From Candidatus Thalassarchaeaceae archaeon (GTDB lineage Archaea; Thermoplasmatota; Poseidoniia; Poseidoniales; Thalassarchaeaceae): 34,626 nucleotides of DNA. Each line of letters opens with the position of its first letter. Position 1 is the stretch's first letter. The stretch covers positions 1 to 34,626 of the forward strand of contig JAPYUB010000004.1 of the NCBI GenBank assembly GCA_029942125.1, in the 5' to 3' direction. The notes below the pieces were generated by a model that made no database searches, was not told the origin of the DNA, and saw only the letters and a program-made list of their open reading frames with translations. A program made the translations under genes and the position numbers. Of the stretch, positions 13,048 to 30,870 are shown piece after piece.

Positions 13048-13061
13048 ATGAATTAATTCAT
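13048..13061. promoter_or_regulatory. 14-bp perfect palindrome ATGAATTAATTCAT (candidate operator), 26 bp before the 13087 start
   Basis: Shares the core AATTAATT with 12881-12894; just upstream of a gene with a ribbon-helix-helix-like N-terminus. Confidence 0.4.
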
Positions 13062-13086: not shown

Positions 13087-14043
13087 ATGGAGGCCACTGT
13101 CACACTCCCTTCACAACTCGTTGAGCGGCTAATGAGCAGTGCAAATGAACTGGACCTTTCAATCAGCCAATATTGTCAATTAATTCTCGAAAATTATCTA
13201 CAGGATGAAGATAACATCGTAGCAGCGGACCCTTCCATATTAGACCCTTTGAAATTAACCAATCTAGACGAAAGCAGGCTGAATTCGACCATTATCGGCA
13301 ACCCACTCGAGGGTGGTGCAGTATCAGGGCACATCAATCGTATGTTGCCTTTGAAGTATGGGTGCAGAATGCTTTGGTCCCTGTTAGATGAACAAGGTAC
13401 AGGGCCGACTATACACGATTTCCGTTCAGCAATTAGGGCTAGTGTGGACCCCATCCGAACACTATTGAAACAATTTGACGAACACCAAGGCCGTGAAAGG
13501 GGATCGAGAACCCATTCTTCCTTCCCGAACGGCGAACGCGCAGCAACAAACCGATTCTTGAATCACTACATGATTCGCAGAGCTCGTGCTGGAGAAACCA
13601 ACCCATCTGGTGCATTGTATGATTTCGGATTGATTGGTGTGGATGATTCCGGCCGGGTACAATTTACTGATTCAGGAAAAAGATTCACCAGGGAACCAAA
13701 TCCCATCATCGACGAATCACTCGAGGGGGGCCCTTCTTTGTCCCCAACAGAACGAGCACTAATCGTATCCCAAGTTCGAAACAACATGGGTAATGAATGG
13801 ATGTACATGCGGCACATTATTGACGGTATCCATATCGGATCCAACACCCCTTCGTCATTGCTTTCCCGCATACAGCGAAGGTATGGCCCAGGGACCAAAT
13901 CGAACTGGAGTGAATCAGTCATCCCCCACATGAGGAGTGGTGTGCTGGGTAGGATGCAGGCCCTGGGTTTCATCGAGAGAATTTTCACCGCAAATCGGGT
14001 TGAATACACCATTACCCCGGCCGCAATCCACATCCTAGATTGA
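13087..14043 (+). CDS. Putative DNA-binding protein: RHH-like N-terminus plus winged-helix-like C-terminus
   Basis: N-term MEATVTLPSQLVERLMSSANELDLSISQYCQLILENYLQDED fits beta-strand/helix/helix of RHH proteins; C-term SVIPHMRSGVLGRMQALGFIERIFTANRVEYTITPAAIHIL resembles a winged-helix recognition/wing segment. Confidence 0.5.
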   Translation: MEATVTLPSQLVERLMSSANELDLSISQYCQLILENYLQDEDNIVAADPSILDPLKLTNLDESRLNSTIIGNPLEGGAVSGHINRMLPLKYGCRMLWSLLDEQGTGPTIHDFRSAIRASVDPIRTLLKQFDEHQGRERGSRTHSSFPNGERAATNRFLNHYMIRRARAGETNPSGALYDFGLIGVDDSGRVQFTDSGKRFTREPNPIIDESLEGGPSLSPTERALIVSQVRNNMGNEWMYMRHIIDGIHIGSNTPSSLLSRIQRRYGPGTKSNWSESVIPHMRSGVLGRMQALGFIERIFTANRVEYTITPAAIHILD

Positions 14044-14084
14044 AGTGCGATCTGTAGAGATTATTGCAATGAATCATAAACTGT

Positions 14085-14107
14085 GGCATATCTCTAAGAG
14101 ATATGCC
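14085..14107. promoter_or_regulatory. 23-bp quasi-palindrome GGCATATCTCT-A-AGAGATATGCC overlapping the start codon of the 14103 gene
   Basis: 11-bp perfect inverted repeat with 1-nt centre; the right arm contains the ATG at 14103-14105. A TATA-like CATAAAC lies about 25-30 bp upstream. Confidence 0.55.
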
Positions 14108-14945
14108 TTGGGCAGCATATGCGTTTTTCAGCATTTTAGCAGCCATGTTTGTTTACGGTGTATTTCGAATCCTTAACGGCGAAGAGAATCCCGCCCACAC
14201 AACTCGTCTTGGCAATGTACGGGCAACCCCCGTCGAGGTATCCGAACCTAGGCCCAACCGATTTGCTTTGGAAGAAGATATGGAACGACTACCAACACCA
14301 ACAGTCGCTACCGATTCTGAGAAAGCACAATCTGATGCCACACCTGAGGATGAGGGCGTTGAAGAGTCAATTGAAGCTGAGTATGCAGAGGCTGAAGAAC
14401 CAGCATCATCCGGCGATTTACTAGATTCGTCAGAAGCACTTCTTGCTGAAATCGGCGCAGAGTGGGACACAAATCCCAGAAAGAAACCCGATTCAACCAA
14501 ACTCAATGTCGAAACCGGAGAAGAGGTTTCAAATCCAGATCTATCAGACTTCCATAACCGCCTTGAAAGAGAAGGGGCACAATCTGGCCAAGTACAAGTC
14601 AGTCTAATTTGGGACAATAAAAACGATCTCGATCTCAGCGTAATTTGCCCATCTGGTGAGCGGATATCGTTTGATCACAAATTGTCAACATGTGGCGGGC
14701 AATTGGATGTCGACATGAATGAATCACCCACAAGCGAACAACCGGTTGAGAACATTTTCTGGCCCTTAGGAGCAGCCCCCAAGGGCGAATACAAGGTTTT
14801 AATTGAGCATTTTGAACAACACGCTGAAGAAGATCTCACCCCTTACAGGGTTCTGGTGGATGATAGTAACGGCCCCAAAGAGTACCGGGGTGAAATTACT
14901 AATGACGAACCACCCCGTTTGGTGTGTGTGTTTACAGTTGAGTAG
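14103..14945 (+). CDS. N-terminally membrane-anchored acidic protein with C-terminal DUF2135/YfaP-like beta-sandwich domain
   Basis: N-term AAYAFFSILAAMFVYGVFRIL TM; Glu/Asp-rich linker; C-terminal QVQVSLIWDNKNDLDLSVICPSGERISFDHKLSTCGGQLDVDMNESPTSEQPVENIFWPLGAAPKGEYKVLIEHFEQ. Confidence 0.7.
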   Translation: MPWAAYAFFSILAAMFVYGVFRILNGEENPAHTTRLGNVRATPVEVSEPRPNRFALEEDMERLPTPTVATDSEKAQSDATPEDEGVEESIEAEYAEAEEPASSGDLLDSSEALLAEIGAEWDTNPRKKPDSTKLNVETGEEVSNPDLSDFHNRLEREGAQSGQVQVSLIWDNKNDLDLSVICPSGERISFDHKLSTCGGQLDVDMNESPTSEQPVENIFWPLGAAPKGEYKVLIEHFEQHAEEDLTPYRVLVDDSNGPKEYRGEITNDEPPRLVCVFTVE

Positions 14946-14956
14946 GGGGAAATCAG

Positions 14957-15394
14957 ATGCGCCTTTCAAGAAAATCGCGGAAATTCCAACGGCGTATCAA
15001 TCGTAGTAAGACTATTGATTCACTCCAAATGATTGCTAATGAGGTACAGGTTGAATATGATAGCCGAGAAATAACTCATAATGAAGCAATGATATTGGGT
15101 AATCAGCTCCAACTTAGGGCGGAACAAATTGACAACAGCCAACTTGTCTATGCAATTTCAGATCGAGATACCTATCGGCGTCTCATCGAAGTATATCTCG
15201 ACGATGGGATTTTAACAAGGACTGAACAAATTCTTCTTTGGGATGAACGTAGGAAATTAGGCATATCCGAAGATTCCCATGATGCACTTCTATTATCACT
15301 GGTTGCACGATATCAAAAGCAAGGCCGTTCCATTCACATTCATTTAATGCCAAACCCACCTGAGATTGAAGAAGAAGAACAACCAGAGGAGTGA
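14957..15394 (+). CDS. Small soluble protein with TerB-like motif
   Basis: YRRLIEVYLDDGILTRTEQILLWDERRKLGISEDSHDALLLSL resembles the 'DGxLtxxExxxLxxxRxxLgIs' pattern seen in TerB-like helical domains; acidic tail EIEEEEQPEE. Confidence 0.5.
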   Translation: MRLSRKSRKFQRRINRSKTIDSLQMIANEVQVEYDSREITHNEAMILGNQLQLRAEQIDNSQLVYAISDRDTYRRLIEVYLDDGILTRTEQILLWDERRKLGISEDSHDALLLSLVARYQKQGRSIHIHLMPNPPEIEEEEQPEE

Positions 15395-15398
15395 TTCG

Positions 15399-18300
15399 AT
15401 GGATAATATGGCTGGATATGCAATAGTATCCACCACAGTCTTAGTCATGGCGTGGCAAGCAATTTCTCACTTAAATCAGGGTAGGAGAAAATCAGAATCA
15501 CTCTTGAGTTCCTTGAAAATAGAAGATATCGAAGTTGAAGACACCCTTCCTCCATCACGTGCATCCTTGTCACAATCTCTCGTCAGTCCCCGAATCGATT
15601 ATGCCTCCGATATGACCCCGTTTCCAACCCATTCACAGCAACGGCAAACGGATAAACGCCATACAATGAAACAAGAAATTAGTGAGTTACAGGAGACCAA
15701 CATCGGAAGATATTCGATTCTTGATCGAACCGCCGAAAAACTGGCTGAATGCCAAGGCATCATCGAATTAATCCAAGGGCTGAGCGTGGAATACAATATA
15801 GAAGCTAACCAAGACCTCATTGAAGCACCCCTTGAAGGGGCGACTCTTGCCGAATTGGAATTACGTCAGGCATCGTTGTTGGAATTATACGAACGAATGT
15901 ATCAACTCACATTTGAAGACACAATTCAGGAAATTCGAAAGAGAGAATTGGGGTTGCAAGAAAACCAAGAAAAAATAACCAAGGCAATCGTCGATACCGA
16001 AACGAGCGAACTTTCCACTCAACTTGAGCAGTTGAGGCGAGAAGAGGAAATGTATCGCGAAATCCGTTCCGCACAAACAGTAAGTTCCCTAGAAAAACTA
16101 GATTTTTCGAAATTGAATGAAGATGGTTCAATACGTCTCAAAGCCCACTTCAAATTTTACCATTCACGATTGAGTGAGAAAGAACGCCTCCAATTCGAAG
16201 CAGAACTATACCGTCATTTCGCTGATTTGATCCATGATTGCGAAGAGCAAGAAGAATTACACGAAATGGAATTCGAAGATTTACCTACTCATCTGCTAAC
16301 TGAATTGAATGAACGCCGTAACAAACGCATTGTAGCCCTGAATGCTAAAGATGAGAAAGAGAGAAAAGCCGCTCGTACCGAAGAGATACGTTTGGCAATC
16401 GAATCTGCAAAGTCATCATCCGAACTCGATAGAATTCGAATTACTGGAGTGGATACAACCCAACAAGAAGAATTGAAGGAACTCCTTGCCCGAACTAGAG
16501 AGAACCTTGTGTGCGACGAACTCAATTCCAAAATTTTAGATTGTGAATATGTGCTTGAACTGGATGCCATCAACATCAGAGGTGTTACAGATGAACAATC
16601 TGAATTGCTAACAGAATTCAAAACCGCGAGGCGTACCGAATTGGTCGAAATCGCCCGCCAACGGAAATTTACTGAACAGTATACTCGATATTTGAACTCA
16701 ATCCCACGAATAGAAGATATTGAAAAACTCCTTTCCGTAGACATTGTGAACACCACCGAGAAGCAGCACCAAGAATTGGAAGAATTACGTCTTACACGTT
16801 TTGATTATCTGGAAGAAATCGAAAAACAAAGAGTCGAAGAAGCGCAAGCCAAACAATACCAACTTCTTCGGGGCTTGCTTGAAACGGCTAAATCTTCAGT
16901 CATTTTAGATAAAATAGAAATCGAAGAAGTCAACGAAGATCAGGAAGCACGTTTGATCGAAATTAAGGAAGAAGTAAGGGAGATTCTCGTAGAAGACGAG
17001 ATGATAACAACACATGTCGAGAAAGCAGAAAAAAAATCCAAGAAAGCACCCACCCCCGACGAATTCGATTATGAACCCGAATCTGCATTCAGAACCCGCA
17101 TCAAGACACTGGACGCTGGTGACGGCCACCTACGATTCAGCTTACTGTGGGATAACATGAATGATTTGGATCTCATTGTGAGAACCCCCGGTGGAGAGAT
17201 AATCCACAGAGGGAAACGCAAATCATCTTGCGGGGGTCATCTCGATCTCGAAATGAACTCTCAACCCGAAATGAAATCCGCTTTGGAGAATATTGTATGG
17301 CCAAAAGGTACTACACCCCCACCTGGAATTTTCAACGTATTCATTTGGCATCGTAAACGCCATCAAAGATTGCGAAAATCAGATCCAACCATTTTCACTC
17401 TGCGGAGTAAAGTTGGTGCAGATTATCTTCAATATTCAGGAAAAACTAGTTTTGGCGACAATCTCAAACTCATCGCATCTATCGAAGTCCCTGACGCGGA
17501 AACAATGGAGAAACGAACGCAATCAGAAATCGAACTTTATCGCCACCAACGAGCAGATGTGATGTCTGCCCAATCTGTTGAGGAATTCCCTACAATCGAT
17601 GACGATATTTCAACCGTCCACAGGGTCATGCTAAACAGATTGATGGAGAAAAGAGAATCCGAACTTGAAGAGGCGCAAAGGAAGCAATACATTGCAGATC
17701 AAGAAACTCAGTATAACCAAATCATGGCAGAAATTAATGAATCAACAGACCTTGATGAATTATCTGCAATACGTTATTCACATGTATCAACCGATGTCGT
17801 GAAATATATCGAAAAAGCAATTGTCAACCGACGTAAATTAATCGAAGCCGGGTTGAAGAAACAACAGCAAATTGAGTCTCAACAGCAAATTGAGAATTAC
17901 CGCGCCCAAATCAATGAATCAGAAAATTTGACTACACTCTCATCAATTGTCTTTGAGGGCGTTGAAGATCGCCAAGCAAAAGCGCTTCAACAACTCAGAA
18001 TCGCCCGCCGAAAAGTCATCCAAAATACAGCAAATAGTGTTGAAATTGAGCAAGACAAACAGGTCAGATTGCATGCTGCACTTAATGAGGCATACAAACG
18101 CGGAGGACTCCAACCATTGGGTGCCGATGAATGGCGTAAGGAAGATTTTGAAGAACGACTCCAACTCGCCGGCGCAAATTCCGGAGGCGTTCAAATTTCT
18201 CTACTGTGGGATAACAAGAACGACTTCAATTTACTCGCCATTTCACCGAGTGGAGAAATAGTTCATCCTAGAAATAGAGAATCCAAAGATGGAGGGATTT

Positions 18301-18551
18301 TAGATATTGAAATGAATCAAAAAGGCAGTTCTCGAGCCCCTGTGGAGAATATTTATTGGCCAGAGAAAAAGGTACCCAAAGGCACATATTACGTGTATGT
18401 ACACTTCTACAAAGAACACGAATTGTTCAAGAGAACAAATTTATCCGAATGCCGAATTCAAATTCTAAACAAAGGCGAACGATCTGAATTTTCCGCTCAG
18501 ATGTCCACGTCAAATAAATTGCAATTCATCACAATGGCGAAGGTGGGATAA
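15399..18551 (+). CDS. Large membrane-anchored coiled-coil protein with two DUF2135/YfaP-like domains and ~8 degenerate helical repeats
   Basis: N-term AGYAIVSTTVLVMAWQAISHL TM; domains ...LRFSLLWDNMNDLDLIVRTPGGEIIHRGKRKSSCGGHLDLEMN... and ...VQISLLWDNKNDFNLLAISPSGEIVHPRNRESKDGGILDIEMN...; repeated I...SxxLxxL..I.h..V units. Start trimmed from 15366 to ATG 15399. Confidence 0.72.
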   Translation: MDNMAGYAIVSTTVLVMAWQAISHLNQGRRKSESLLSSLKIEDIEVEDTLPPSRASLSQSLVSPRIDYASDMTPFPTHSQQRQTDKRHTMKQEISELQETNIGRYSILDRTAEKLAECQGIIELIQGLSVEYNIEANQDLIEAPLEGATLAELELRQASLLELYERMYQLTFEDTIQEIRKRELGLQENQEKITKAIVDTETSELSTQLEQLRREEEMYREIRSAQTVSSLEKLDFSKLNEDGSIRLKAHFKFYHSRLSEKERLQFEAELYRHFADLIHDCEEQEELHEMEFEDLPTHLLTELNERRNKRIVALNAKDEKERKAARTEEIRLAIESAKSSSELDRIRITGVDTTQQEELKELLARTRENLVCDELNSKILDCEYVLELDAINIRGVTDEQSELLTEFKTARRTELVEIARQRKFTEQYTRYLNSIPRIEDIEKLLSVDIVNTTEKQHQELEELRLTRFDYLEEIEKQRVEEAQAKQYQLLRGLLETAKSSVILDKIEIEEVNEDQEARLIEIKEEVREILVEDEMITTHVEKAEKKSKKAPTPDEFDYEPESAFRTRIKTLDAGDGHLRFSLLWDNMNDLDLIVRTPGGEIIHRGKRKSSCGGHLDLEMNSQPEMKSALENIVWPKGTTPPPGIFNVFIWHRKRHQRLRKSDPTIFTLRSKVGADYLQYSGKTSFGDNLKLIASIEVPDAETMEKRTQSEIELYRHQRADVMSAQSVEEFPTIDDDISTVHRVMLNRLMEKRESELEEAQRKQYIADQETQYNQIMAEINESTDLDELSAIRYSHVSTDVVKYIEKAIVNRRKLIEAGLKKQQQIESQQQIENYRAQINESENLTTLSSIVFEGVEDRQAKALQQLRIARRKVIQNTANSVEIEQDKQVRLHAALNEAYKRGGLQPLGADEWRKEDFEERLQLAGANSGGVQISLLWDNKNDFNLLAISPSGEIVHPRNRESKDGGILDIEMNQKGSSRAPVENIYWPEKKVPKGTYYVYVHFYKEHELFKRTNLSECRIQILNKGERSEFSAQMSTSNKLQFITMAKVG

Positions 18552-18612: not shown

Positions 18613-18647
18613 AACCATAGATTTGAATACAATTAGGAGTGTTCCCA

Positions 18648-21600
18648 ATGCGTAACAAAACCCTCATTGTTTTCGCAATAATGTTACTACATTGTTTCAC
18701 GCCATTTGCATTCAATTTGTCAAACAACCTCCCTGCCACGAATGCCGAATCTACCACCTCAAGAGACGCAAATACCGACATCAACGTAACCCAAATAGAA
18801 TGGATTGGCCCCTCGTATTATTGCAATCCATGTGTAAGTAACGTGCTCGCTCCCGGATTTCAAGAAGTCCGCATCACTGTTGTGAATGACGGCTTACTTC
18901 CGGGGGCCGGCGCGGTAACCGTGTTCATTGATAGTGGAGATGGCATGGGACTAGTTTCGATTGGTAGCCAATCAATTTCGCTGGCACCAGGAGGCGTATC
19001 CCAATATGTGTTCAGTTGGACAGCTACATCAGGCATAGGGCAGCAGATTGAAACTTATGCAGCAATGATTTCAGACATCGATTTGACTAACAATCTTCTC
19101 AATCAAAATTTCGAAGTGAGCGCAGATAATGCAGGCGAAGTTTACTCTGACACCTTGCCCGCGGATGGATCACGTCTAGCCCAAGAAAACGAAGTCGTTT
19201 CAGTCGGTGTCCGAAATGTAGGGAACATCGACACCGAGGCAACGCCAATCATTACTCTCACATCTACTGCTGGTGGGACGCCTGTAACGTTCATTGGAAC
19301 ATCAGTCTCTCTTTTGGCTGGCAGTATTACCTTCCCACCATCGGTGGAACTTGCATCACTCATCATCAATGCAACAGGCCTGTCAGGCAATTACATATTG
19401 TCGGGTGATGTATACTTCAATTCTACAACCCCACTCTTTTCCGATTCTGTTGGCATAACTCCCCGTACAATTACGTTCAGCCCCTACCGAACCACCTTGA
19501 TTGCGCCAAGTGATCGAGCGATTGAACCAGGCGATTTAACGACCCTGACTTTCATAGTACAAAATATCGGGGAAGCACCCGATCGATACAATTTCACCAT
19601 CACCGATGTCCAGGGTTGGGCCGACACATCCTCCAATCCATCTCAAACCCAAATCGTTAATGCATCTTCCTCGACAACCATTGTCGTTACAGTCGCAGTT
19701 CCCTTGGGCACAGACCGCTCTTTGTCCGATTTAATCACAGTAGAAATCGAAAGTGAAGGGGGCGAATACAATCTTTCAGATTCCACGGCAGTAATGGCGG
19801 GGGATTTGCTATTGGGTGAGTTGAGTCACGGCAGTTGGTTCGTACCAATTATCCCCGGAACCGAAGAAATAATCCAGTACACTTTACGCAATAACGGAAC
19901 CTCACCAGCTATCTTTATTCTTGATGCAGGATTTTGGCAAACTGCGCCGGGGTGGACGGTTGAAGTTTATCCAACAACCACTCCTTACATGACAGTTGGT
20001 GAAGAGATAATCGTCAACGTTGTTGTCCAACCACCAGCCCTCTCACTACCTTTTGATCCCACTTCCAAACTCGCAGAAGGCAATCAGTTGACCCTGTGGA
20101 CATCCATTACACCATTGGGCGGTGGCCCCAATGTGCAACAGACAACCCTCGAGGTCCAATCTACAATCATGGTAGAATTATTCGCGGAACAAACTGAATT
20201 CCTAGTAGACCCATCTGAATTATCAATAGGGCCCGTATCACGTTTCGTCGACATCGAAATGGAATTGCGACACAATCTCATTCTAGGTATTTCGACCACT
20301 GTAGAAATTCAATTATCGGCAGAACCGATTACATTCACATCCTTAATACCGTCAAATGGTCCCAATGAGATTATGCGATGGAATAGCTCAATCACACCAA
20401 ATCAAACTAGTATGAACTTGGGGGAAACAGAATCTCTTGTTGCTACTATTCTAGGCCCTTCAGATCTGCTGCCACTTGCAGGATCACTCGTGATCGATGT
20501 CGTTGCAAACCTCACTCTATCTGGGGCATTGAGCGGTATCCAGGCGCCCGAGTCGAATATCAGCATCACAATCACCATCCCCGAACTAACTCTAGTGGAT
20601 GTTGAAATTCCAACTCCAACAATTGTGACCCCTGAGATTCTTTCGACAACACCCATCATCGTGTCGAATACAGGTAATCATCAAACAAATTTCACACTAA
20701 GTACCGACGGGCCAGAAGGTTGGATTGTATCTATATCCCCAACAATAATTTCTGACCTACATTCAATCATAGACGCATGGCCTTCTGTTGGGGGGGATAA
20801 TGTAACCACATCACTTAGTGTGACGGCACCTCAAAACACCCGTGCGGACACCCCCTTCAATGTCAATGTCACCGTGTCGAGCGATACGGGGGAAATTTTG
20901 ACGGTGACTCCAATACCCTTCCTCGTAGAGGAAGTCATAGGGGCTTCACTTACTCCAGATTATGCTGTTGCCGTCATTCCGGTGAACGGCAATTCATCCA
21001 TTGCATTAGAAGCTAACAATACTGGAAATTCTTTGCAAACATTTACAATTTCAATCGAGGAACCACTCGATGATATCAACTTAACATTGACCTCCGATAC
21101 TGAAATTTCTATTGAGCCAGGGGAAATCAGCATTGTTCAGATAGAAGTAACATCAGAACAATTTGCACGCGCTGATGAAAATCACAGTGCTCAGGCGGTA
21201 TTGTATCACAATGGAGTGGAACTTGATCGAATCGATATTTATGTGGAAATAATCGCCAATCATCAAATTGAATTTGAACATACCAGTGAATATTCAGTTG
21301 TACCTGGAATGAGCCTCAGCATCCTAGTCAATGTGACCAACGTAGGTAATCTCGAGGAGTTCATCAATTTCACAACAACCGCCCCTAGTGGTTGGCAATC
21401 ATCAGTCACACCATTGAATATGACAATTGATGGCGAAGGTGTTGAAATTTTGCCATTGATCATTGATGTTACAGTACCCCCCATGTCAAATGATGCAGAC
21501 CTCAATCCAGGTTCAATCCACAATCTCATGGTTTTGGCAAACAATGTTAGTGATTCAATCCAAGTAGGATCGTCCTCGATACAATTCAATGTCGAACCCG

Positions 21601-23351
21601 TATTCGTCCTGTCCTCGGATGATTTCCCAGATGTGGTGGATCTATTGCCTGGTGAATTGAGAACATTCGACATCGAAATCTCAAATGATGGAAATCAAGA
21701 TGTCATTCTAGATCTTGATTGTGAAGTGAATAGCCCAAGTCGTTGGGATGTATCTGAATGCGACGCCAGTAACTTGACTCTAGCCAGTGGGGAAGTGCGC
21801 ACAGTTTCCTTTAGCGTTGAAGGAATCGCACCAGATCATTACAATCTCGAACAATCTGATTTACGTCTTACATTCTCACCGCAAGACAATCATTCAGGAG
21901 ATGCTCTTCTTGCGACGGTGTTACGCATTAGCCGAATGCATTCAGATCCCCCCCTAGAACTCTCTGGCGGGGAGCCAATACACGATATCGAGGTAGATTG
22001 GATGCATGTGCAAGCGGTCGGCCAAACCGCAGATTCTCGCGCGATAGCGTACGAATTAGAATTGGTAAACGCCAGTCGTTACATCAACGAAACATTGTAT
22101 TCAGGAGATGTCAATTGGTCGCTTGAAATTGATTATGGTAGTGGATTCACCTCAATTTATAACTCTCCATTCACACTGAACCCAGCAACTCCAATGCAAT
22201 TGAAGACAATGACAATTCAAGCAATCTTGCCACCTGCAACTAGCATACCTCCTGGTGACGGATGGACACTGATTTTCAATCTGACACATCCCGAAGAAAT
22301 GACCAGTACTCAGATTATTATCAATTTTCGAGTGGATGCGTGGGCCGACCCTTCTGTCATCACCATCAAGATTGATGGCGGTTCTGATTTCATCGAATCA
22401 AATTCGGGAACATTGGTGGCCCAAATCACAAATGCAGGAAATGCCGGCACTGCTCTTGGAATTGTAGCAACATTGGATTGCGAACCGGGCATAGATATTC
22501 AAGATGAAGTGACACAAGCGATCATCAGTATGCAACCATTTGAGACAAAGGAATTAGAGTGGGAAATCGAGTCTGATGCCCTCAATTGGTGGGTCTCGAT
22601 GAACACAGTCCCATGTACCGTCACAATCGAATCACCAGAAATGGCGGGTGACAATGAATCGAACGACATCAAATCAATATCGGTTGATGTTCAATCGTGG
22701 TCCCTCCCCCTCCTCGCCCTCATACCGATCACCCTCGCTTTAGTGACACAGTCGAGTCGCCTGTTGCGTAGAGCATCAGAGGATGAAAGATCTCTCATGT
22801 TGTGCGCATATTCGGGTTCAGCATTATTGGGCCTAACTACACAGTACAACCTAGGTTCTTACGTGAATTTCTCTTTGGCAGCCGCTGCGTTGCTATGGGT
22901 AGTTTTCATCGCATCGCGTTCCTCTGCCTTTGAGATACCTGCAATCCTTTCCGATAAACAGAATATGCAACGAGGCTCCGGATCAATTATTGAAGATCAT
23001 GAAGCTGAAATGAAACGAGTTCTGAAGCAACTCACGATAAAATTGGCTTTCGCACCATTGGGTTTCATCCTAGTCGCGATGGTTATGCCAAATGACATTT
23101 CTTGGTCGCTTGCAAACATCAGTACAATCATTTTGTACGCAACCATCGGGACACTCCTCGTCGTATACATGACTCTTCGAACTAGAAATATCTGGCTCAA
23201 CATCTTTAATCAGTTGGCTGCTATGGAAATTGAATCGCAAGAATTGTTAATTCAACTGGGCAACCCATCAGCAGATTTGCGCAGAATCACCATCGGGCAG
23301 AGATGGGGAGAGGCACATGACGTAAGCGTGGAGGTGGATTCGAATGTCTGA
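18648..23351 (+). CDS. Giant surface protein: signal peptide, tandem NEW3/CARDB-like Ig-fold repeats, polytopic C-terminal membrane domain with cytoplasmic tail
   Basis: MRNKTLIVFAIMLLHCFTPFAF signal; repeated 'xNxGxxxxxFxxxxxxPxGW' motifs (VQNIGEAPDRYNFTITDVQGW, VSNTGNHQTNFTLSTDGPEGW, VTNVGNLEEFINFTTTAPSGW); C-terminal hydrophobic segments LPLLALIPITLALV, VNFSLAAAALLWVVFIA, LAFAPLGFILVAMVM, ISTIILYATIGTLLVVYM. ATG 18648 preceded by TTAGGAGTG. Confidence 0.75.
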   Translation: MRNKTLIVFAIMLLHCFTPFAFNLSNNLPATNAESTTSRDANTDINVTQIEWIGPSYYCNPCVSNVLAPGFQEVRITVVNDGLLPGAGAVTVFIDSGDGMGLVSIGSQSISLAPGGVSQYVFSWTATSGIGQQIETYAAMISDIDLTNNLLNQNFEVSADNAGEVYSDTLPADGSRLAQENEVVSVGVRNVGNIDTEATPIITLTSTAGGTPVTFIGTSVSLLAGSITFPPSVELASLIINATGLSGNYILSGDVYFNSTTPLFSDSVGITPRTITFSPYRTTLIAPSDRAIEPGDLTTLTFIVQNIGEAPDRYNFTITDVQGWADTSSNPSQTQIVNASSSTTIVVTVAVPLGTDRSLSDLITVEIESEGGEYNLSDSTAVMAGDLLLGELSHGSWFVPIIPGTEEIIQYTLRNNGTSPAIFILDAGFWQTAPGWTVEVYPTTTPYMTVGEEIIVNVVVQPPALSLPFDPTSKLAEGNQLTLWTSITPLGGGPNVQQTTLEVQSTIMVELFAEQTEFLVDPSELSIGPVSRFVDIEMELRHNLILGISTTVEIQLSAEPITFTSLIPSNGPNEIMRWNSSITPNQTSMNLGETESLVATILGPSDLLPLAGSLVIDVVANLTLSGALSGIQAPESNISITITIPELTLVDVEIPTPTIVTPEILSTTPIIVSNTGNHQTNFTLSTDGPEGWIVSISPTIISDLHSIIDAWPSVGGDNVTTSLSVTAPQNTRADTPFNVNVTVSSDTGEILTVTPIPFLVEEVIGASLTPDYAVAVIPVNGNSSIALEANNTGNSLQTFTISIEEPLDDINLTLTSDTEISIEPGEISIVQIEVTSEQFARADENHSAQAVLYHNGVELDRIDIYVEIIANHQIEFEHTSEYSVVPGMSLSILVNVTNVGNLEEFINFTTTAPSGWQSSVTPLNMTIDGEGVEILPLIIDVTVPPMSNDADLNPGSIHNLMVLANNVSDSIQVGSSSIQFNVEPVFVLSSDDFPDVVDLLPGELRTFDIEISNDGNQDVILDLDCEVNSPSRWDVSECDASNLTLASGEVRTVSFSVEGIAPDHYNLEQSDLRLTFSPQDNHSGDALLATVLRISRMHSDPPLELSGGEPIHDIEVDWMHVQAVGQTADSRAIAYELELVNASRYINETLYSGDVNWSLEIDYGSGFTSIYNSPFTLNPATPMQLKTMTIQAILPPATSIPPGDGWTLIFNLTHPEEMTSTQIIINFRVDAWADPSVITIKIDGGSDFIESNSGTLVAQITNAGNAGTALGIVATLDCEPGIDIQDEVTQAIISMQPFETKELEWEIESDALNWWVSMNTVPCTVTIESPEMAGDNESNDIKSISVDVQSWSLPLLALIPITLALVTQSSRLLRRASEDERSLMLCAYSGSALLGLTTQYNLGSYVNFSLAAAALLWVVFIASRSSAFEIPAILSDKQNMQRGSGSIIEDHEAEMKRVLKQLTIKLAFAPLGFILVAMVMPNDISWSLANISTIILYATIGTLLVVYMTLRTRNIWLNIFNQLAAMEIESQELLIQLGNPSADLRRITIGQRWGEAHDVSVEVDSNV

Positions 23352-24207
23352 AGTGACCACAATTTCAACTCAAGGCTCCTACAGAGCCCAAGTCACCCGG
23401 CTCAATCTTATTCTAGACGAGCACCTTCGATTAATTCAAGAATCAGTGACTGACAAACATGCAAGGGACGCCCGTCGAAGTATACGTCAAGCCCGTCAAG
23501 ACATCGATCAACTCAAGGCCCAAGTCGGCCGAATGCATCGCTCCATTGGTATGTTACACACCATCATCAGAGAGCGTTCAACAACTGAAACTGAACTCGT
23601 TGATGTGTTACTTACAATGAAGACTGCAGAGACTCTCATCCTGCGTGGTTCTTTCGATGAAGCATCTCTACAATTGGAAAGATTGGTGGAACACTTGCTC
23701 ATTAATAGTGCTGCTTTGAACCCATTCATTTTCTATGAATTTTGGATGGGCGTTGAAGCGCGTTGGGATGTCAATTCTGAGCACGGACAACTTTTCGTCA
23801 GGGTCGAGAATACAAGCTCCGGACTTCTTCCAGGCTTCAACGTCAAAGCACCCGTCCCGCCGAATTGGCGTTCATCACCTCCATCTCAAGCGATTATGGC
23901 CCTGAATCCAGGTCAATCATGTGATCTTGTTTTCAATATCACACCATCTGCAATGGCGGCCATTCGAGAGGTAGGGGCACCGGGAAGTTTACAGGAACGC
24001 CTTGCGATCCAATCTGGCTACAATTTGACTCAGGAGGGACTTACAATTGATTGCCGAGTTGAGAACAAAACGGGGGAGCCTATGACTGAAGTTTTGGTGA
24101 CTCCATGGATCCCCCCCGGGTGGAAAACCAACTCATGGCCATTCATCAATAAACTAGAACCGAATCAGATTGAATTCGTTACAATATATCTTGATTTGGC
24201 TAAATAA
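23344..24207 (+). CDS. Coiled-coil protein with C-terminal NEW3-like domains, no signal peptide
   Basis: ATG overlaps the upstream stop (ATGTCTGA). N-terminal helical/coiled-coil; C-terminal LFVRVENTSSGLLPGFNVKAPVPPNWRSSPPSQAIMALNPGQSCDLVFNITPS and IDCRVENKTGEPMTEVLVTPWIPPGWKTNSWPFINKLEPNQIEFVTIYLDLAK. Confidence 0.6.
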   Translation: MSEVTTISTQGSYRAQVTRLNLILDEHLRLIQESVTDKHARDARRSIRQARQDIDQLKAQVGRMHRSIGMLHTIIRERSTTETELVDVLLTMKTAETLILRGSFDEASLQLERLVEHLLINSAALNPFIFYEFWMGVEARWDVNSEHGQLFVRVENTSSGLLPGFNVKAPVPPNWRSSPPSQAIMALNPGQSCDLVFNITPSAMAAIREVGAPGSLQERLAIQSGYNLTQEGLTIDCRVENKTGEPMTEVLVTPWIPPGWKTNSWPFINKLEPNQIEFVTIYLDLAK

Positions 24208-24218
24208 CCACACGGGGG

Positions 24219-24231
24219 CCCGAGTATAAAC
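24219..24231 (+). promoter_or_regulatory. Possible archaeal TATA-type promoter element upstream of flaB
   Basis: AGTATAAACG in the 80-bp spacer before flaB; placement relative to the start is plausible but untested. Confidence 0.25.
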
Positions 24232-24287
24232 GTGGAGTAGAATAAAATACCTTCTCGGCAGAAAATAAAGTACTGGAACGTGAACCA

Positions 24288-24869
24288 ATGTCCCGAGAGA
24301 ATCGATACCTGAAAGAGAATGAGAGCGGCGCCATCGGAATTGGCGCGATGATTATCTTCATCGCACTGATTTTGGTTGCTGCAGTAGCATCAACGATTAT
24401 CATCAAAACAGCTGAAGAACTTCAACAAAGAGCTGAAGCAACTGGCGATGATACTCGCGATGAAATCAGCGGTAAAATCACCCTAGTTGGCGCATATGTG
24501 AGCGATGATACGGGCGGCGGCGCCGGTACAGCAGACGAAGTCACGTTGATATTGCAACTCAGTGCTGGATCTGACACAACTCTACTTTTAGATATGGATT
24601 GGTTCATCGTTTGTGACGGTGGTGCCGGTACAGCAGAAGTCAATACAGGTACCTTTGACACGATTGCAACCGATTTAGATGGAACTGCAATTGCTACAGG
24701 TACATCAGTAGATTCCGGTGAAACTTTCCTCTTACCGATTGACACCTCCGCCCTCTGCACACCGGGTGTTGGTGACGAACAAGAACTCCGGGTAATCATC
24801 ACAGGTGGGGGCGAAACTTACGCCCAATTACACTACAACAGTGTAGATAATGGCGCAACCATCGTATGA
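24288..24869 (+). CDS. flaB: Archaellin (class III signal peptide)
   Basis: KENESGAIGIGAMIIFIALILVAAVASTIIIKTAEELQQRAEAT: canonical archaellin N-terminus; followed by F/G/H/I/J homologues. Confidence 0.93.
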   Translation: MSRENRYLKENESGAIGIGAMIIFIALILVAAVASTIIIKTAEELQQRAEATGDDTRDEISGKITLVGAYVSDDTGGGAGTADEVTLILQLSAGSDTTLLLDMDWFIVCDGGAGTAEVNTGTFDTIATDLDGTAIATGTSVDSGETFLLPIDTSALCTPGVGDEQELRVIITGGGETYAQLHYNSVDNGATIV

Positions 24870-24882
24870 TACTATGATAACC

Positions 24883-24909
24883 CCTCTGCCCCCCTACGGG
24901 GGGCAGAGG
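24883..24909 (+). promoter_or_regulatory. Strong intercistronic hairpin CCTCTGCCCCCC-TAC-GGGGGGCAGAGG after flaB
   Basis: 12-bp perfect GC-rich stem with a 3-nt loop starting 13 bp after the flaB stop; not followed by a U-tract. Confidence 0.65.
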
Positions 24910-24928
24910 ACATCATGGAGGGATTGTG

Positions 24929-25756
24929 ATGGGATTGCTGTCATTTCTAGGATTTAGTGCAGACGGCGATCTTGACGCGATAGATAGTGCTTCAGTACAG
25001 CGTTTAGAATCCTTATCTGAACATGCTGTTGAGGCAGTCATGGTCCCTGAGGAATCAATTCCCATTGAAGAGGATGCCTGGACCCTTGCCCCATCCCCTG
25101 TTAGGGCACGTGTTGGTGCCAGCGGCCTTGAACTGGCAGATATTGAGAATAAGCCTGCTGCCGCTGCAGCTGCGACAATAGACACCAAAGCAATTGAACA
25201 GCGATTGGATGATCGGTTCGATCGCATCGAAGCGACCATGAGCATCATTGATGCTCGTCTGACCCAATTACATGCCTCTGATATTTTGTCACACGCCCTT
25301 CCTACGGATACTTTGGTAACTGCAGATGGCGATGATAGGGAGGTCGCGGAACAGGAAACAGAATCTTCAGATGATGCTGATGATTTAGAATCGCCATCAG
25401 TTGAGACCGTTAATTTGCTTGATTTGTATGAAGGGAGTGTTACAGATCTCAATCCATTCCTCAACCATCGTCCGGATTCTCTCTCTAAGGGGCCTTCAGT
25501 GACCGTGAGTGAAATATCTGCATTATTACTCGATCATCTTTCATCCGAATCCGCCACGACCTTCATCGAGAAAGCAAAAACCAGCGGAATGATTTCTAAG
25601 ATCGAATCAGCCGAGTTAATTGCCATCATTGGTTTAGCAAATCCAGCAATCAACGATGACGGGTCTGAACATCTGCCACACCGTACACTACTGATGTTTG
25701 GTGCAATGGTGGATGCCTGGAGAAATTCCCGAACCATCTCTGGCGAGGGGGCCTGA
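24929..25756 (+). CDS. FlaC/D/E-like archaellum cytoplasmic protein
   Basis: Position between flaB and flaF; C-terminal NLLDLYEGSVTDLNPFLNHRP...TVSEISALLLDHLSSESATTFIEKAKTSGMISKIESAELIAIIGLANPAI...HRTLLMFGAMVDAWRNS similar to the FlaD/E C-terminal region. Confidence 0.65.
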   Translation: MGLLSFLGFSADGDLDAIDSASVQRLESLSEHAVEAVMVPEESIPIEEDAWTLAPSPVRARVGASGLELADIENKPAAAAAATIDTKAIEQRLDDRFDRIEATMSIIDARLTQLHASDILSHALPTDTLVTADGDDREVAEQETESSDDADDLESPSVETVNLLDLYEGSVTDLNPFLNHRPDSLSKGPSVTVSEISALLLDHLSSESATTFIEKAKTSGMISKIESAELIAIIGLANPAINDDGSEHLPHRTLLMFGAMVDAWRNSRTISGEGA

Positions 25757-25759
25757 GAT

Positions 25760-26161
25760 GTGGGTGGCTCAGTGAGTATCTCTGCTCTGATTGTCGGGAC
25801 AGCATTTCTCGGTATCTTTGCCCTCGCATCGTTGTCGCTCAATAACACTGCAATTATAGCATCAGAAATTCTTGAAGAGAACTCTGATGAGCCTGAAATT
25901 CGCCTCATCAATGCTTCTGAAGTTGGGGGCGTTATCCATCTTAACATGACCAATACAGGAGATGAAACTGTTTCATTTAATCAAACATGGTTCAGTATTG
26001 ATGGTGCATCCCCGATTAGAGCGAGCGATTACCATACACAGAGCACAATTCTCTTTCCTGGAGAAACTCAACATATACAGTTGAACGGTACAGGAATAAC
26101 ATCTCCCTCGCGAATCTTTGTCGCAAGCATGGGCGGTCAATCCGGAGTATCATTCTCATGA
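25760..26161 (+). CDS. flaF: Archaellum protein F (GTG start)
   Basis: Short N-terminal TM (SISALIVGTAFLGIFALASLSL) plus beta domain; syntenic before flaG. Confidence 0.75.
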   Translation: MGGSVSISALIVGTAFLGIFALASLSLNNTAIIASEILEENSDEPEIRLINASEVGGVIHLNMTNTGDETVSFNQTWFSIDGASPIRASDYHTQSTILFPGETQHIQLNGTGITSPSRIFVASMGGQSGVSFS

Positions 26162-26164
26162 GGT

Positions 26165-26653
26165 GTGGCAATGGCTGATGGTGGTACTAGTGAATTGATT
26201 ATGCTGATAACCGGCTTATTGGTTGCAGGCATCGTCACCACCTTACTCGTCGCATCATGGGGCGGACTCGCAAATTCTATGGACACAGCCCAAAACCAAA
26301 TAGAAGCCAATTCGAAAACCAAAGCAGCATTTGCCGGCGATCCAATGCAAGTTTCCTGGAACCAATCAGCATGCCACTTCACTTTGTACATTCAAAATAC
26401 AGGTACCCTTGAGCTGACCACCGTTGAACTTGGCGTAATCATCAATGGGACAGCATCCACAGTCAACCAAACACGATTACTTAGCAATAGTTCTGTTTGG
26501 ATTGCGGGGGAAGTAGCTGAATTGTATGTTTGTCCTTCGGGAATTACGCTATCAGCAGGGCAGGAAATCATCGTCACAATCTTGGTTCGAAGTGAACACT
26601 ACAAAGGCATATCTGGTCAGTATTCATTCAGTGAGGTGGTCCGCCTTGTCTGA
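26165..26653 (+). CDS. flaG: Archaellum protein G (GTG start, or ATG at 26171)
   Basis: ELIMLITGLLVAGIVTTLLVASWGGLANSMD N-terminal TM plus beta-sandwich; syntenic before flaH. Confidence 0.75.
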   Translation: MAMADGGTSELIMLITGLLVAGIVTTLLVASWGGLANSMDTAQNQIEANSKTKAAFAGDPMQVSWNQSACHFTLYIQNTGTLELTTVELGVIINGTASTVNQTRLLSNSSVWIAGEVAELYVCPSGITLSAGQEIIVTILVRSEHYKGISGQYSFSEVVRLV

Positions 26654-27341
26654 CGATATTGGGTTTTCCTTTGAATTGGAAACTGATAGTCTTTCAGATA
26701 GTTTAGGGCGGTACCTTCCCCGCAGGGCCCTCTACATTGTAACTGGTCATATTGGGGCGGGAAAGAGTTTGATTGCTCAGCGATTTATCTTTGGCTTAGT
26801 TTCGAATAATGTTAGTACAACCACGGTAACAACTGAACTGACAACACGGGGTTGGTTGGAACAGGTGAACAGTTTGGGATATCCATTGGAGGATGCAGCC
26901 AATTCAGGCAAATTCACATTGCTTTCTCGCTTCGGAGTCGTCTCCGAAGAAGTAGAAGAGAACGTGGATATCGAAGACATATTGCAGTCCGAAGCGTTGC
27001 AGCATGCAGATATTTCCATTATTGATCGTGCATCAGCGATTCTTCAGCATTACGATGGTACACCAGATCAACTTCTGAGTCGTCTCCGAACATTTTGTTC
27101 TGAAGAACGCTCCCTCATGTTGTTATTGGACCCAGATGAAATTTCATCTGAAATGATGCGAACTCTATCAGCCTCAGCTGAGGTTTCTATCGAGATGCGA
27201 ACATCAGAGGTTGGAGGTAGCCTTTCACGAGTTCTAGCGGTTAATCGCTTCCTACGTGCCGCGGGTCCAGTGCAACCTAGAATTGGTTGGAGAGTTGAAC
27301 CGGGCATGGGCTTTATTGTCGATATTACAGCAGTCAGTTGA
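26646..27341 (+). CDS. flaH: Archaellum ATPase-like protein H (TTG start overlapping flaG stop)
   Basis: LSDDIGFSFELETDSLSDSLGRYLPRRALYIVTGHIGAGKSLIAQRFIFGLVSNNVSTTTVTTELTTRGWLEQ: KaiC/RecA-like Walker A. Start trimmed from 26526. Confidence 0.88.
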   Translation: MSDDIGFSFELETDSLSDSLGRYLPRRALYIVTGHIGAGKSLIAQRFIFGLVSNNVSTTTVTTELTTRGWLEQVNSLGYPLEDAANSGKFTLLSRFGVVSEEVEENVDIEDILQSEALQHADISIIDRASAILQHYDGTPDQLLSRLRTFCSEERSLMLLLDPDEISSEMMRTLSASAEVSIEMRTSEVGGSLSRVLAVNRFLRAAGPVQPRIGWRVEPGMGFIVDITAVS

Positions 27342-27351
27342 GGGGTAAATC

Positions 27352-29067
27352 ATGCAAACCGAAGAACCCGAATTCGCTAGAGGGGACCTCGACGGCGTCT
27401 TAGCTCGGTTCGACCATGTTCGTGAATGGGTTGAGGATTTTGAAGCACGTCACGGCACCCGTCCAATGTATTACGGCCCATTGGATCGCGCCGCTTCTAA
27501 AATGGAACCACTCAATCTGATTTACCATCTTCGTGGCCCTCTATTCGCTCATGTCTATCGACCCACACAAGACGAAGAAGGAGGTGGTAGCACACTGTGG
27601 TTCGGTATCGAACCATATCTCACCGAAGAAGAGGAAATTATCAAACAGATCCTAGTCGAAAGATTACTGAAAGAAGCACCCAACTCCCCATCCTTCTCTA
27701 CTGATGCTGAATTCGAGGCCATGTTGGGGAACATGATGAAAAAACATACGAGAATTTCCAATGTTCCAACTTCGATCAATGACCTCATTACACCTGTCAG
27801 AAGAGTTCTAGGGTTATCTGATCCACCACTTAATGTTACAGAACAACAGATGGAACGACTACAATACACCGTGATCCGAGACCTTGTTCGTTCAGGCCCA
27901 CTTGAGACCTTACTTTCTGATGAAATGCTTGAAGATATTCATGCTGTTGGATTACGATATATTAGCATGGATCACAAAGTGTTTGGAATGGTCACATCAA
28001 ACATCCGTTTCCGAGATCGAGAGATGCTAGAGAGGTATTTGCGTGCCATGTCTGAGCGTATTGGTCGCCCAGTATCTGATAGTAAACCAATCATCGATGG
28101 GGCTCTTTTGGATGGCAGCCGAATCAACATCATCTATTCTGATGACGTCTCAATGCTGGGTTCATCTTTCACAATTCGGAAATTCGCTGAAGAAACAATC
28201 TCAATTACTCAATTGATTCAATGGAAAACCATGTCAGCTGAAGTTGCCGCTTACATCTGGCTCGGTTTGGAAAATGGAATGTCACTCTTGGTGTCTGGCG
28301 AAACCGCATCTGGAAAGACAACGACATTGAATGCAATCCTGCCATTTATTGACCATAACGTGAAAATTTACTCCGCAGAAGACACCCCTGAGGTGAAAGT
28401 TCGCCACCGATTATGGCAACGCCTAGTCACTCGCGATTCTAAGAATGAAGACTCAAGAGTCGAGATGTTTGACCTCCTTAAAGCAGCACTAAGAAGTCGG
28501 CCACGCTACATCATTATTGGCGAGATTCGTGGTGCTGAAGGCGCAACAGCGTTTCAAGCGATGCAGACAGGCCATCCGGTTATTGCAACATTCCACGCAT
28601 CATCTATTGTGAAAATGATTCAACGATTTACAGGCGATCCAATTAACGTTCCAATACGTTTCTTTGACAACCTAAACTTCGCTATTTTCCAAGAAGTGGT
28701 TGAAGCTCCTGGGGGAGGCATCGCTCGCAGAATTACAGGAATAGACGAAGTGATTGGATACAACAAACACGAAGATGGAGTCCTCACCAGAGGTATGTTT
28801 GATTGGGATCCTGTCCGAGACAAGCACTACTTCCGCGGTATGTTCCAGTCACATTTGATGGAGAATAAGATGGCAGCCATCATGGGCTTTGAAAATAAAC
28901 GAGATATTTATGAAGAAATGTCCCGCCGTGCTGAAGCACTACAGCGAATGGTGGATAGAGATATTACTCATTATGACGATGTCTTTGATCTTCTCGACAT
29001 ATACTATCAACAGGATTGGGAAGCGTTCTCAAATGCAATTGATATTTGGGTGCCAATTGGAGAATGA
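27352..29067 (+). CDS. flaI: Archaellum assembly/rotation ATPase I
   Basis: LLVSGETASGKTTTLNAILPF Walker A; RPRYIIIGEIRGAEGATAFQAMQTGHPVIATFHASS (Walker B/His box) of type IV filament ATPases. Confidence 0.95.
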   Translation: MQTEEPEFARGDLDGVLARFDHVREWVEDFEARHGTRPMYYGPLDRAASKMEPLNLIYHLRGPLFAHVYRPTQDEEGGGSTLWFGIEPYLTEEEEIIKQILVERLLKEAPNSPSFSTDAEFEAMLGNMMKKHTRISNVPTSINDLITPVRRVLGLSDPPLNVTEQQMERLQYTVIRDLVRSGPLETLLSDEMLEDIHAVGLRYISMDHKVFGMVTSNIRFRDREMLERYLRAMSERIGRPVSDSKPIIDGALLDGSRINIIYSDDVSMLGSSFTIRKFAEETISITQLIQWKTMSAEVAAYIWLGLENGMSLLVSGETASGKTTTLNAILPFIDHNVKIYSAEDTPEVKVRHRLWQRLVTRDSKNEDSRVEMFDLLKAALRSRPRYIIIGEIRGAEGATAFQAMQTGHPVIATFHASSIVKMIQRFTGDPINVPIRFFDNLNFAIFQEVVEAPGGGIARRITGIDEVIGYNKHEDGVLTRGMFDWDPVRDKHYFRGMFQSHLMENKMAAIMGFENKRDIYEEMSRRAEALQRMVDRDITHYDDVFDLLDIYYQQDWEAFSNAIDIWVPIGE

Positions 29068-29076
29068 GGTGAAACG

Positions 29077-30870
29077 ATGGAACGGCTACCACTGTACCAA
29101 ATCGCCTTTCGGAGAATGGAAATTCCAATTAATGAATATGCCATTAAGATTGTATTTCCTGCCTTTGCTGGAGGATTGATTGTTTCATGCATCCTTTTCT
29201 TCACCTTAAGTTCATTTTTCATCGGTGCTTCCGGCATCATCCTTCTGATTTTATTTCCAATGCTTTCAACAATGGCTGCAATTTCTTGGCCAATCATCCA
29301 GACACTCAGGGAAGCGGTCCTAATCGAGAAAGAAATGCACATGTTCATCACAAGAATGGGTATTCTCAGTATTGGTGAAATCACCTCTCAATCAATGTTT
29401 GCAATCCTGCGTCAAATGAGCGATTATGGAGCCCTTGCAAAAGAAGTGAAAGCCATTGAGACATTGGTGCAAAAGTGGCACACTAGTTTACCCGAAGCAT
29501 CCCGTGTTGTTGGACGCCAAAGCCCATCTCCAATTTGGGGGGATTTTCTGGATCGTATGGCATTTTCAGTTGAGGCTGGACAGCCTATTGATGAATTCAT
29601 GAAAGCAGAGCAGCAGACCTTCGCCAAGGAATTTGACACACTCTATGACACACGCCTTGAATCCATTGACATGCTCAAGGAGATTTACATCTCTTTGACT
29701 ACAACAGGCATTTTTGGCCTAGTAATCGCTGGTATACACTTGGTTCTGTTCATCACAGATGACTATGGCTCTACACCATTTGATGTGCTGGTTAGAATCC
29801 GATGGGTTCTTCTTGCTGCATTGTTATTTATCGCCATGCAAATTTCGATGTTGGTTGCATTCCGCGCAATGATTCCTGACGATCCAATTTTTGGCAGACA
29901 TGAATTTGAAACAAGATTTCACGCCCGCTCCCGACAAACATGGTTGACTGCTGGAGGCATGGCCCTCCCCCTCTTTTTGTCGACCCTTGTTGTCGCTATT
30001 CTGTATAGTGAAATCATCACTTCATCATGGGATAAATACGGTCTCGTTTTGATTGCCCTGTTATTCACCCCCTTTCTAGTACCAGGGGTCACTGCATCCC
30101 GAGAAGAAAAGAACATCAAGCGCCGAGATGAATCTTATCCAGGTTTTATTCGAGCATTGGGGGGAACAGCACAGGCCCGTGCAGCCGAGCCATCAGCGAC
30201 AATTAAGGCACTACGAGGAATTGATTTCGGTTCCCTCAATGAATCGATTGCGAGCCTAGAAAGCCGCTTAATGTTACGAATTGATTCAGAACGTAGTTGG
30301 GATTGGTTTTCAGCGGAAGTCAATTCGTCCATGGTATCCAGATTTAATCGCATTTATTTGGAAGGCGCCCAAACGAGTGGGGAGCCTGCCGCAGTCGCCA
30401 GTCTTGTCAGTCAAAATACGACTAATCTTTTGTCATTGCGTCGTCGTAGATCATTGTCAGCGAGCACTATGAATGGTGTTGCGTATGGACTGTTGGTGGC
30501 TACGATCGTATCATTCAATATCGCAATCGCAGTTGTTTTCCAATTGGGCTCAAATGTTGCTGGCGTTGCTCAAGGTATGGAAGACATGGATTTTGGTGAT
30601 ATCACCACCAATGCAGGCGGCCTTGGAATACCGGTACTGGGGGATGCAGGCGGCGTTGAAGCGAATATCGCCTTGTTCAAAATAGTCACATCCATACTGA
30701 TTATTTTCATGATATTCATTCTCTCATCCATTGCATCTCGATTGCGAGGTGGTGGGTTCACATTGGCCATGGGTCAAGTTTCCACCATGATGTGGGTCGC
30801 TGCAATCACGAGTCTTCTCACAGGCGTTTTACTCGAATCAATTCTCGGTACATTCTTTACTTCAACATAG
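29077..30870 (+). CDS. flaJ: Archaellum membrane platform protein J
   Basis: Polytopic; T2SF-type region WGDFLDRMAFSVEAGQPIDEFMKAEQQTFAKEFDTLYDTRLESIDMLKEIYISL; follows flaI. Confidence 0.92.
   Translation: MERLPLYQIAFRRMEIPINEYAIKIVFPAFAGGLIVSCILFFTLSSFFIGASGIILLILFPMLSTMAAISWPIIQTLREAVLIEKEMHMFITRMGILSIGEITSQSMFAILRQMSDYGALAKEVKAIETLVQKWHTSLPEASRVVGRQSPSPIWGDFLDRMAFSVEAGQPIDEFMKAEQQTFAKEFDTLYDTRLESIDMLKEIYISLTTTGIFGLVIAGIHLVLFITDDYGSTPFDVLVRIRWVLLAALLFIAMQISMLVAFRAMIPDDPIFGRHEFETRFHARSRQTWLTAGGMALPLFLSTLVVAILYSEIITSSWDKYGLVLIALLFTPFLVPGVTASREEKNIKRRDESYPGFIRALGGTAQARAAEPSATIKALRGIDFGSLNESIASLESRLMLRIDSERSWDWFSAEVNSSMVSRFNRIYLEGAQTSGEPAAVASLVSQNTTNLLSLRRRRSLSASTMNGVAYGLLVATIVSFNIAIAVVFQLGSNVAGVAQGMEDMDFGDITTNAGGLGIPVLGDAGGVEANIALFKIVTSILIIFMIFILSSIASRLRGGGFTLAMGQVSTMMWVAAITSLLTGVLLESILGTFFTST

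Follow-up and report, generated by a model that had tools for sequence, protein, structure and literature searches.

A proposed palindromic operator between TATA box and start codon ahead of an archaellum-linked gene cluster in Marine Group II archaea

In a stretch of 34,626 nucleotides from a Candidatus Thalassarchaeaceae archaeon (contig JAPYUB010000004.1, here called the window) we found a conserved palindrome that contains the start codon of gene 14103 and is followed by an archaellum gene cluster. Judged from sequence comparison, it is probably a two-fold symmetric operator located between the TATA box and the start codon of a leaderless promoter opening the 14103 unit, and it most likely serves repression. 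Such a site is ordinary in kind and new in its place and organism. No planktonic archaea are more abundant in the surface ocean than Marine Group II, which is without cultured representatives (PMC6461757). Its archaellum genes have been described (PMC6336850, PMC6461757), and in the literature searched we found neither a published regulator nor an account of the control of these genes. With a precisely placed, strongly conserved single-copy proposed operator and a neighbouring candidate regulator, control of this motility/attachment cluster becomes directly testable in vitro.

Sequence, rarity and conservation of the palindrome

Positions 14085-14107 read GGCATATCTCTAAGAGATATGCC. The two 11-bp arms form a perfect inverted repeat around a 1-nt centre, and the ATG of ORF 14103-14945 lies inside the right arm. 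The original prediction had described this repeat as well as a TATA-like CATAAAC upstream of the ATG, and we could confirm the former on the sequence and locate the latter (Table 1). As a chance control, 30 first-order Markov versions of the window were searched for perfect arms of at least 11 bp with a centre of up to 8 nt, which gave one inverted repeat in all 30 versions (0.03 per window). Two places qualify in the real window, namely 14085-14107 and a hairpin at 24883-24909 described below.

Table 1. Coordinates of the palindrome, the predicted promoter elements and the surrounding genes in the window.
Feature	Position	Strand	Remark
Palindromic site GGCATATCTC-TAA-GAGATATGCC	14085..14107	.	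Proposed dimer operator; conserved 10-bp arms, variable 3-nt centre
Predicted TATA box CATAAAC	14075..14081	+	ATAAACT (14076-14082) invariant in 10 loci, ATAAACTC in G082
Candidate BRE region gcaatgaat, partly conserved	14066..14074	+	Just upstream of TATA box; GCAA nearly invariant
Candidate regulator 13087	13087..14043	+	Predicted N-terminal ribbon-helix-helix and two winged-helix-like domains; 59 nt upstream of 14103
Second palindrome ATGAATTAATTCAT	13048..13061	.	13087 promoter; with up to one mismatch, a single occurrence per locus in most genomes of the own clade
14103, first gene after the palindrome	14103..14945	+	N-terminal membrane-like segment, linker, C-terminal domain; start ATG in right arm
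Two further genes, probably same transcription unit as 14103	14957..18551	+	14957-15394 and 15366-18551
Remaining cluster	18639..30870	+	Large Ig-like protein 18639, 23344, archaellin 24288, 24926, 25760, FlaF/G-like 26165, FlaH 26526, FlaI 27352, FlaJ 29077

In order to follow the site in relatives we searched 17 Ca. Thalassarchaeaceae (MGIIb) genomes of the same genus with up to three mismatches. It is present in nine of them at ten loci, once per locus and with identical arms, and the reversed pattern used as control gave zero matches in the 17 genomes. In the assembly G012 the locus is present in two diverged copies (L138, L151), each with the palindrome, which may reflect a strain mixture or a duplication. 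Across the ten loci the conserved unit is GGCATATCTC-N3-GAGATATGCC, with arms of 10 bp and three variable centre bases (TAA, ATA or GTA). Among these loci, only that of the source genome has the eleventh inner pair. The intergenic alignment shows the block ATAAACTnnGGCATATCTCnnnGAGATATGCCTTGG set in diverged sequence. A neutral tree with a length of 7.9 substitutions per site was built from 143 four-fold sites in the two genes on either side. On this tree, all 20 arm columns and also ATAAACT show no parsimony change, whereas the four-fold sites change 3.3 times on average and only 2 of the 143 are invariant. Three changes each were counted for the two bases directly before the site and for the first centre base.

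A diverged form of the site was found in genome G082, which shares 63% identity with the window in 13087 and about 54–58% in 14103 and which groups with the palindrome clade in the 13087 protein tree (support 76). At the equivalent position it reads TGCCATGACTCTAAAGAGTCATGGCA, with the arms GCCATGACTC-TAAA-GAGTCATGGC, and here too the ATG falls within the right arm. Three of the ten pairs differ from the main form, each on both sides and with none broken, so that pairing has been kept through compensatory change at three pairs, while partner-slid controls for the alignment gave no compensated pair; as one diverged sequence, G082 counts as a single evolutionary comparison. The arms are thus identical in ten loci and compensated at 3/3 changes in G082, where variation without compensation would have spoken against the original prediction. 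The centre comprises 4 nt in G082 and 3 nt in the main clade. In the sister clade (G002, G005, G006 and G013), 13087 and the cluster are kept, 13087 and 14103 nearly abut and a TATA-like box precedes 13087; the palindrome is absent between 13087 and 14103 in these four genomes.

The Markov controls and the arm conservation at saturating neutral divergence rule out a chance palindrome, and the site is real and under strong selection. A recombination or chromosome-maintenance site of the dif type would also be expected as one copy per locus with perfect symmetry, but the invariable linkage to the TATA box and ATG of one gene, the absence in close relatives, the compensated change in G082 and the 3-nt centre all argue against it, which leaves a dif-like or chance origin hardly credible. 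A global regulon was rejected as well, since none of the nine carrier genomes has a second copy elsewhere with up to three mismatches. Among 293 genomes of the order the remaining matches are singletons with three mismatches, and beside the one checked in its context (G074) no homologue of the cluster was found. In archaeal records with names, all matches of the site belong to Marine Group II / Ca. Thalassarchaeaceae assemblies, and the search of viral contigs came up empty. Bacterial matches of the 18-base pattern (14 of 23 matches) were rejected as homologues, being hairpin-like and in many cases having longer complementary flanks and T-runs.

Operator, RNA hairpin or activator site

The proposed function follows from the promoter geometry. 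In the main form as well as in G082 the TATA box lies 27–28 nt before the ATG and at equal distance to the left arm (CATAAAC itself occupies 22–28 nt before the ATG of 14103), which places the left arm upstream of the predicted transcript start. Widespread use of leaderless mRNAs has been reported in Thermoplasma and Halobacteria (PMC7531240). With its two-fold symmetry and conserved sequence the palindrome overlaps promoter and start, and on a leaderless promoter it is predicted to cover about -18 to +5. A homodimer or a dimer of dimers would bind this region and block the loading of RNA polymerase, resulting in repression that some signal would relieve. We observed a site that occurs once per locus and is invariant, its compensation in G082, the fixed order of TATA box, palindrome and ATG and the synteny, and from these we infer the leaderless start, the protein binding and repression rather than activation. 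An operator is favoured because the arms are identical in ten loci with one site per locus, and the arm invariance favours sequence-specific recognition. The location of the site on the downstream side of the TATA box suggests a repressor by analogy with TrmBL1, which blocks RNA polymerase recruitment from a palindrome in this position and activates when bound upstream (PMC4706686).

The original prediction had named both an operator over a leaderless start and an RNA hairpin masking the start, of which the operator is our best reading and the hairpin an unlikely alternative. The hairpin would sequester the start codon of 14103 in read-through mRNA from 13087 and thereby confine translation to leaderless transcripts without the left arm, or it would be a regulated start-masking structure in a leadered mRNA. 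The 23-mer can form a 10-bp stem with a 3-nt loop (-13.8 kcal/mol, z -5.9), the G082 version folds well too, and the gap of 59 nt between 13087 and 14103 has no T-run. All three differences in G082 are compensated with the ATG still in the right arm and a changed loop length, although this compensation does not separate RNA pairing from DNA symmetry. The main point in favour of RNA is the change of the spacer from 3 to 4 nt, to which a hairpin loop would be indifferent; it counts against an operator, as the half-sites would be turned relative to each other and the binding dimer must have adapted. On the other hand, the TATA box 27–28 nt before the ATG leaves the left arm outside the main RNA, and not a single G-U or single-sided change is seen in the ten loci. 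We simulated selection for pairing only on the neutral tree and determined the probability that none of the five coding-free pairs changes, which is about 5e-8 with free wobble, about 0.006 at 30% wobble acceptance and about 0.18 at 10%, meaning that invariance alone does not rule against RNA if wobble is strongly disfavoured. A search against Rfam gave no match within the window.

Another point against the operator is the sister clade, which has 13087 and the cluster without the palindrome. The same retention would suit a symmetric site that is protein-bound but acts as an activator or promoter-architecture element, whoever binds it, and known archaellum regulators such as EarA do activate (PMC10665913, PMC13286277). 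Activators act from upstream, however, and sites on the downstream side of the TATA box typically serve repression (PMC4706686), which makes this reading quite improbable. Slightly less probable still is a combination of operator and RNA switch, in which the bound site would block the leaderless promoter and mRNA reading through from the upstream regulator gene would fold and hide the start codon. If true, production of the archaellum-linked unit would depend on its own leaderless transcript alone.

Gene 13087 as candidate regulator and comparison with known systems

Returning to the preferred operator, the original prediction had assigned its binding to the product of the adjacent gene 13087, which we regard as quite possible but somewhat short of probable. 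The predicted protein looks DNA-binding and its gene is syntenic with the site, but relatives that lack the palindrome also retain 13087, and the promoter of 13087 itself contains a different palindrome. The predicted structure (mean pLDDT 81) shows two N-terminal helices (9–21 and 26–40) in a ribbon-helix-helix (RHH)-like order, preceded by a stretch of low confidence, and two winged-helix-like domains. Sequence matches to RHH proteins of the CopG, CcdA and FitA-like type are weak and below the cut-off, ORF56 and CopG chains match weakly at E 0.05–0.7, and several members of the 13087 family show weak matches to Pfam RHH families and the PaaX-type winged helix. Foldseek returned generic winged-helix regulators only, with E above 0.1 in the PDB. 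Homologues of 13087 occur in the clades carrying the cluster and, in G241, also in one genome stretch that lacks it; none was found in 58 genomes of the other family, an empty answer that carries little weight.

The promoter of 13087 contains ATGAATTAATTCAT and an AATTAATAC element, both conserved in the own clade, and AATTAAT elements upstream of 13087 also occur in the sister clade. As this palindrome differs from that at 14103, any autoregulation of 13087 would use a different sequence, and the sister clade without the site suggests that 13087, if it is the regulator here, has another role or target there.

Arc/Mnt-type RHH repressors of phage P22 bind as cooperating dimers to palindromic, two-fold symmetric operators of about 20 bp over promoters. 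Compared to these, 13087 adds the two winged-helix-like domains, and it is a candidate binder only. TrmBL1 from Pyrococcus furiosus likewise recognises a symmetric site that follows an archaeal TATA box, the Thermococcales Glycolytic Motif TATCAC-N5-GTGATA (PMC4706686), whose TATCAC resembles the inner half-site TATCTC of our palindrome. The consensus itself is not present, as the core at 14085 reads TATCTC-N3-GAGATA, and the site further differs in its spacer of 3 instead of 5, its longer arms and its one target per locus instead of dozens per genome. Moreover, Pfam does not identify the neighbouring 13087, with its predicted RHH and winged-helix domains, as a TrmB protein. EarA from Methanococcus and Pyrococcus, a known euryarchaeal archaellum regulator acting from upstream at arl promoters, is similar to our proposal in being a dedicated regulator that works at the first promoter of an archaellum cluster (PMC10665913). 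In contrast, its TACATA-type sites lie upstream of the BRE and activate, whereas the site described here is palindromic, of unrelated sequence and downstream of the TATA box; reading positions 13980-14075 revealed no TACATA. CdrS (RHH; PMC8406309) and CsmR (Lrp/AsnC; PMC13286277) from haloarchaea are likewise archaeal regulators of the RHH or winged-helix type, and CsmR adjoins archaellin genes and is required for motility (PMC13286277), but their families and organisms differ from those of 13087.

The gene cluster behind the site

The C-terminal domain of 14103 (14532-14942), for which no Pfam match above the cut-off was found, recurs twice in the 1061-aa protein encoded by 15366-18551. Gene spacing suggests several transcription units, namely 14103-18551, 18639-24207 and one starting from 24288, so that the site would directly govern the first unit only. 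The core archaellum genes would then be controlled by read-through from this unit or merely be linked to it by position. Genus g7 (L126-L133) shows a different arrangement, in which 14103 is followed by 13087 and the homologues of 14957 and 18639 are oriented divergently from this pair; by gene order, the cluster is rearranged there and the regulator-like gene 13087 is retained.

Directly after the archaellin gene, the very stable hairpin CCTCTGCCCCCC-TAC-GGGGGGCAGAGG at 24883-24909 has a folding energy of -28 kcal/mol (z -6.4). It is kept in relatives with small changes in length, with other stems in G013 and in G002-type genomes, and it may set the mRNA levels of archaellin relative to those of the downstream genes.
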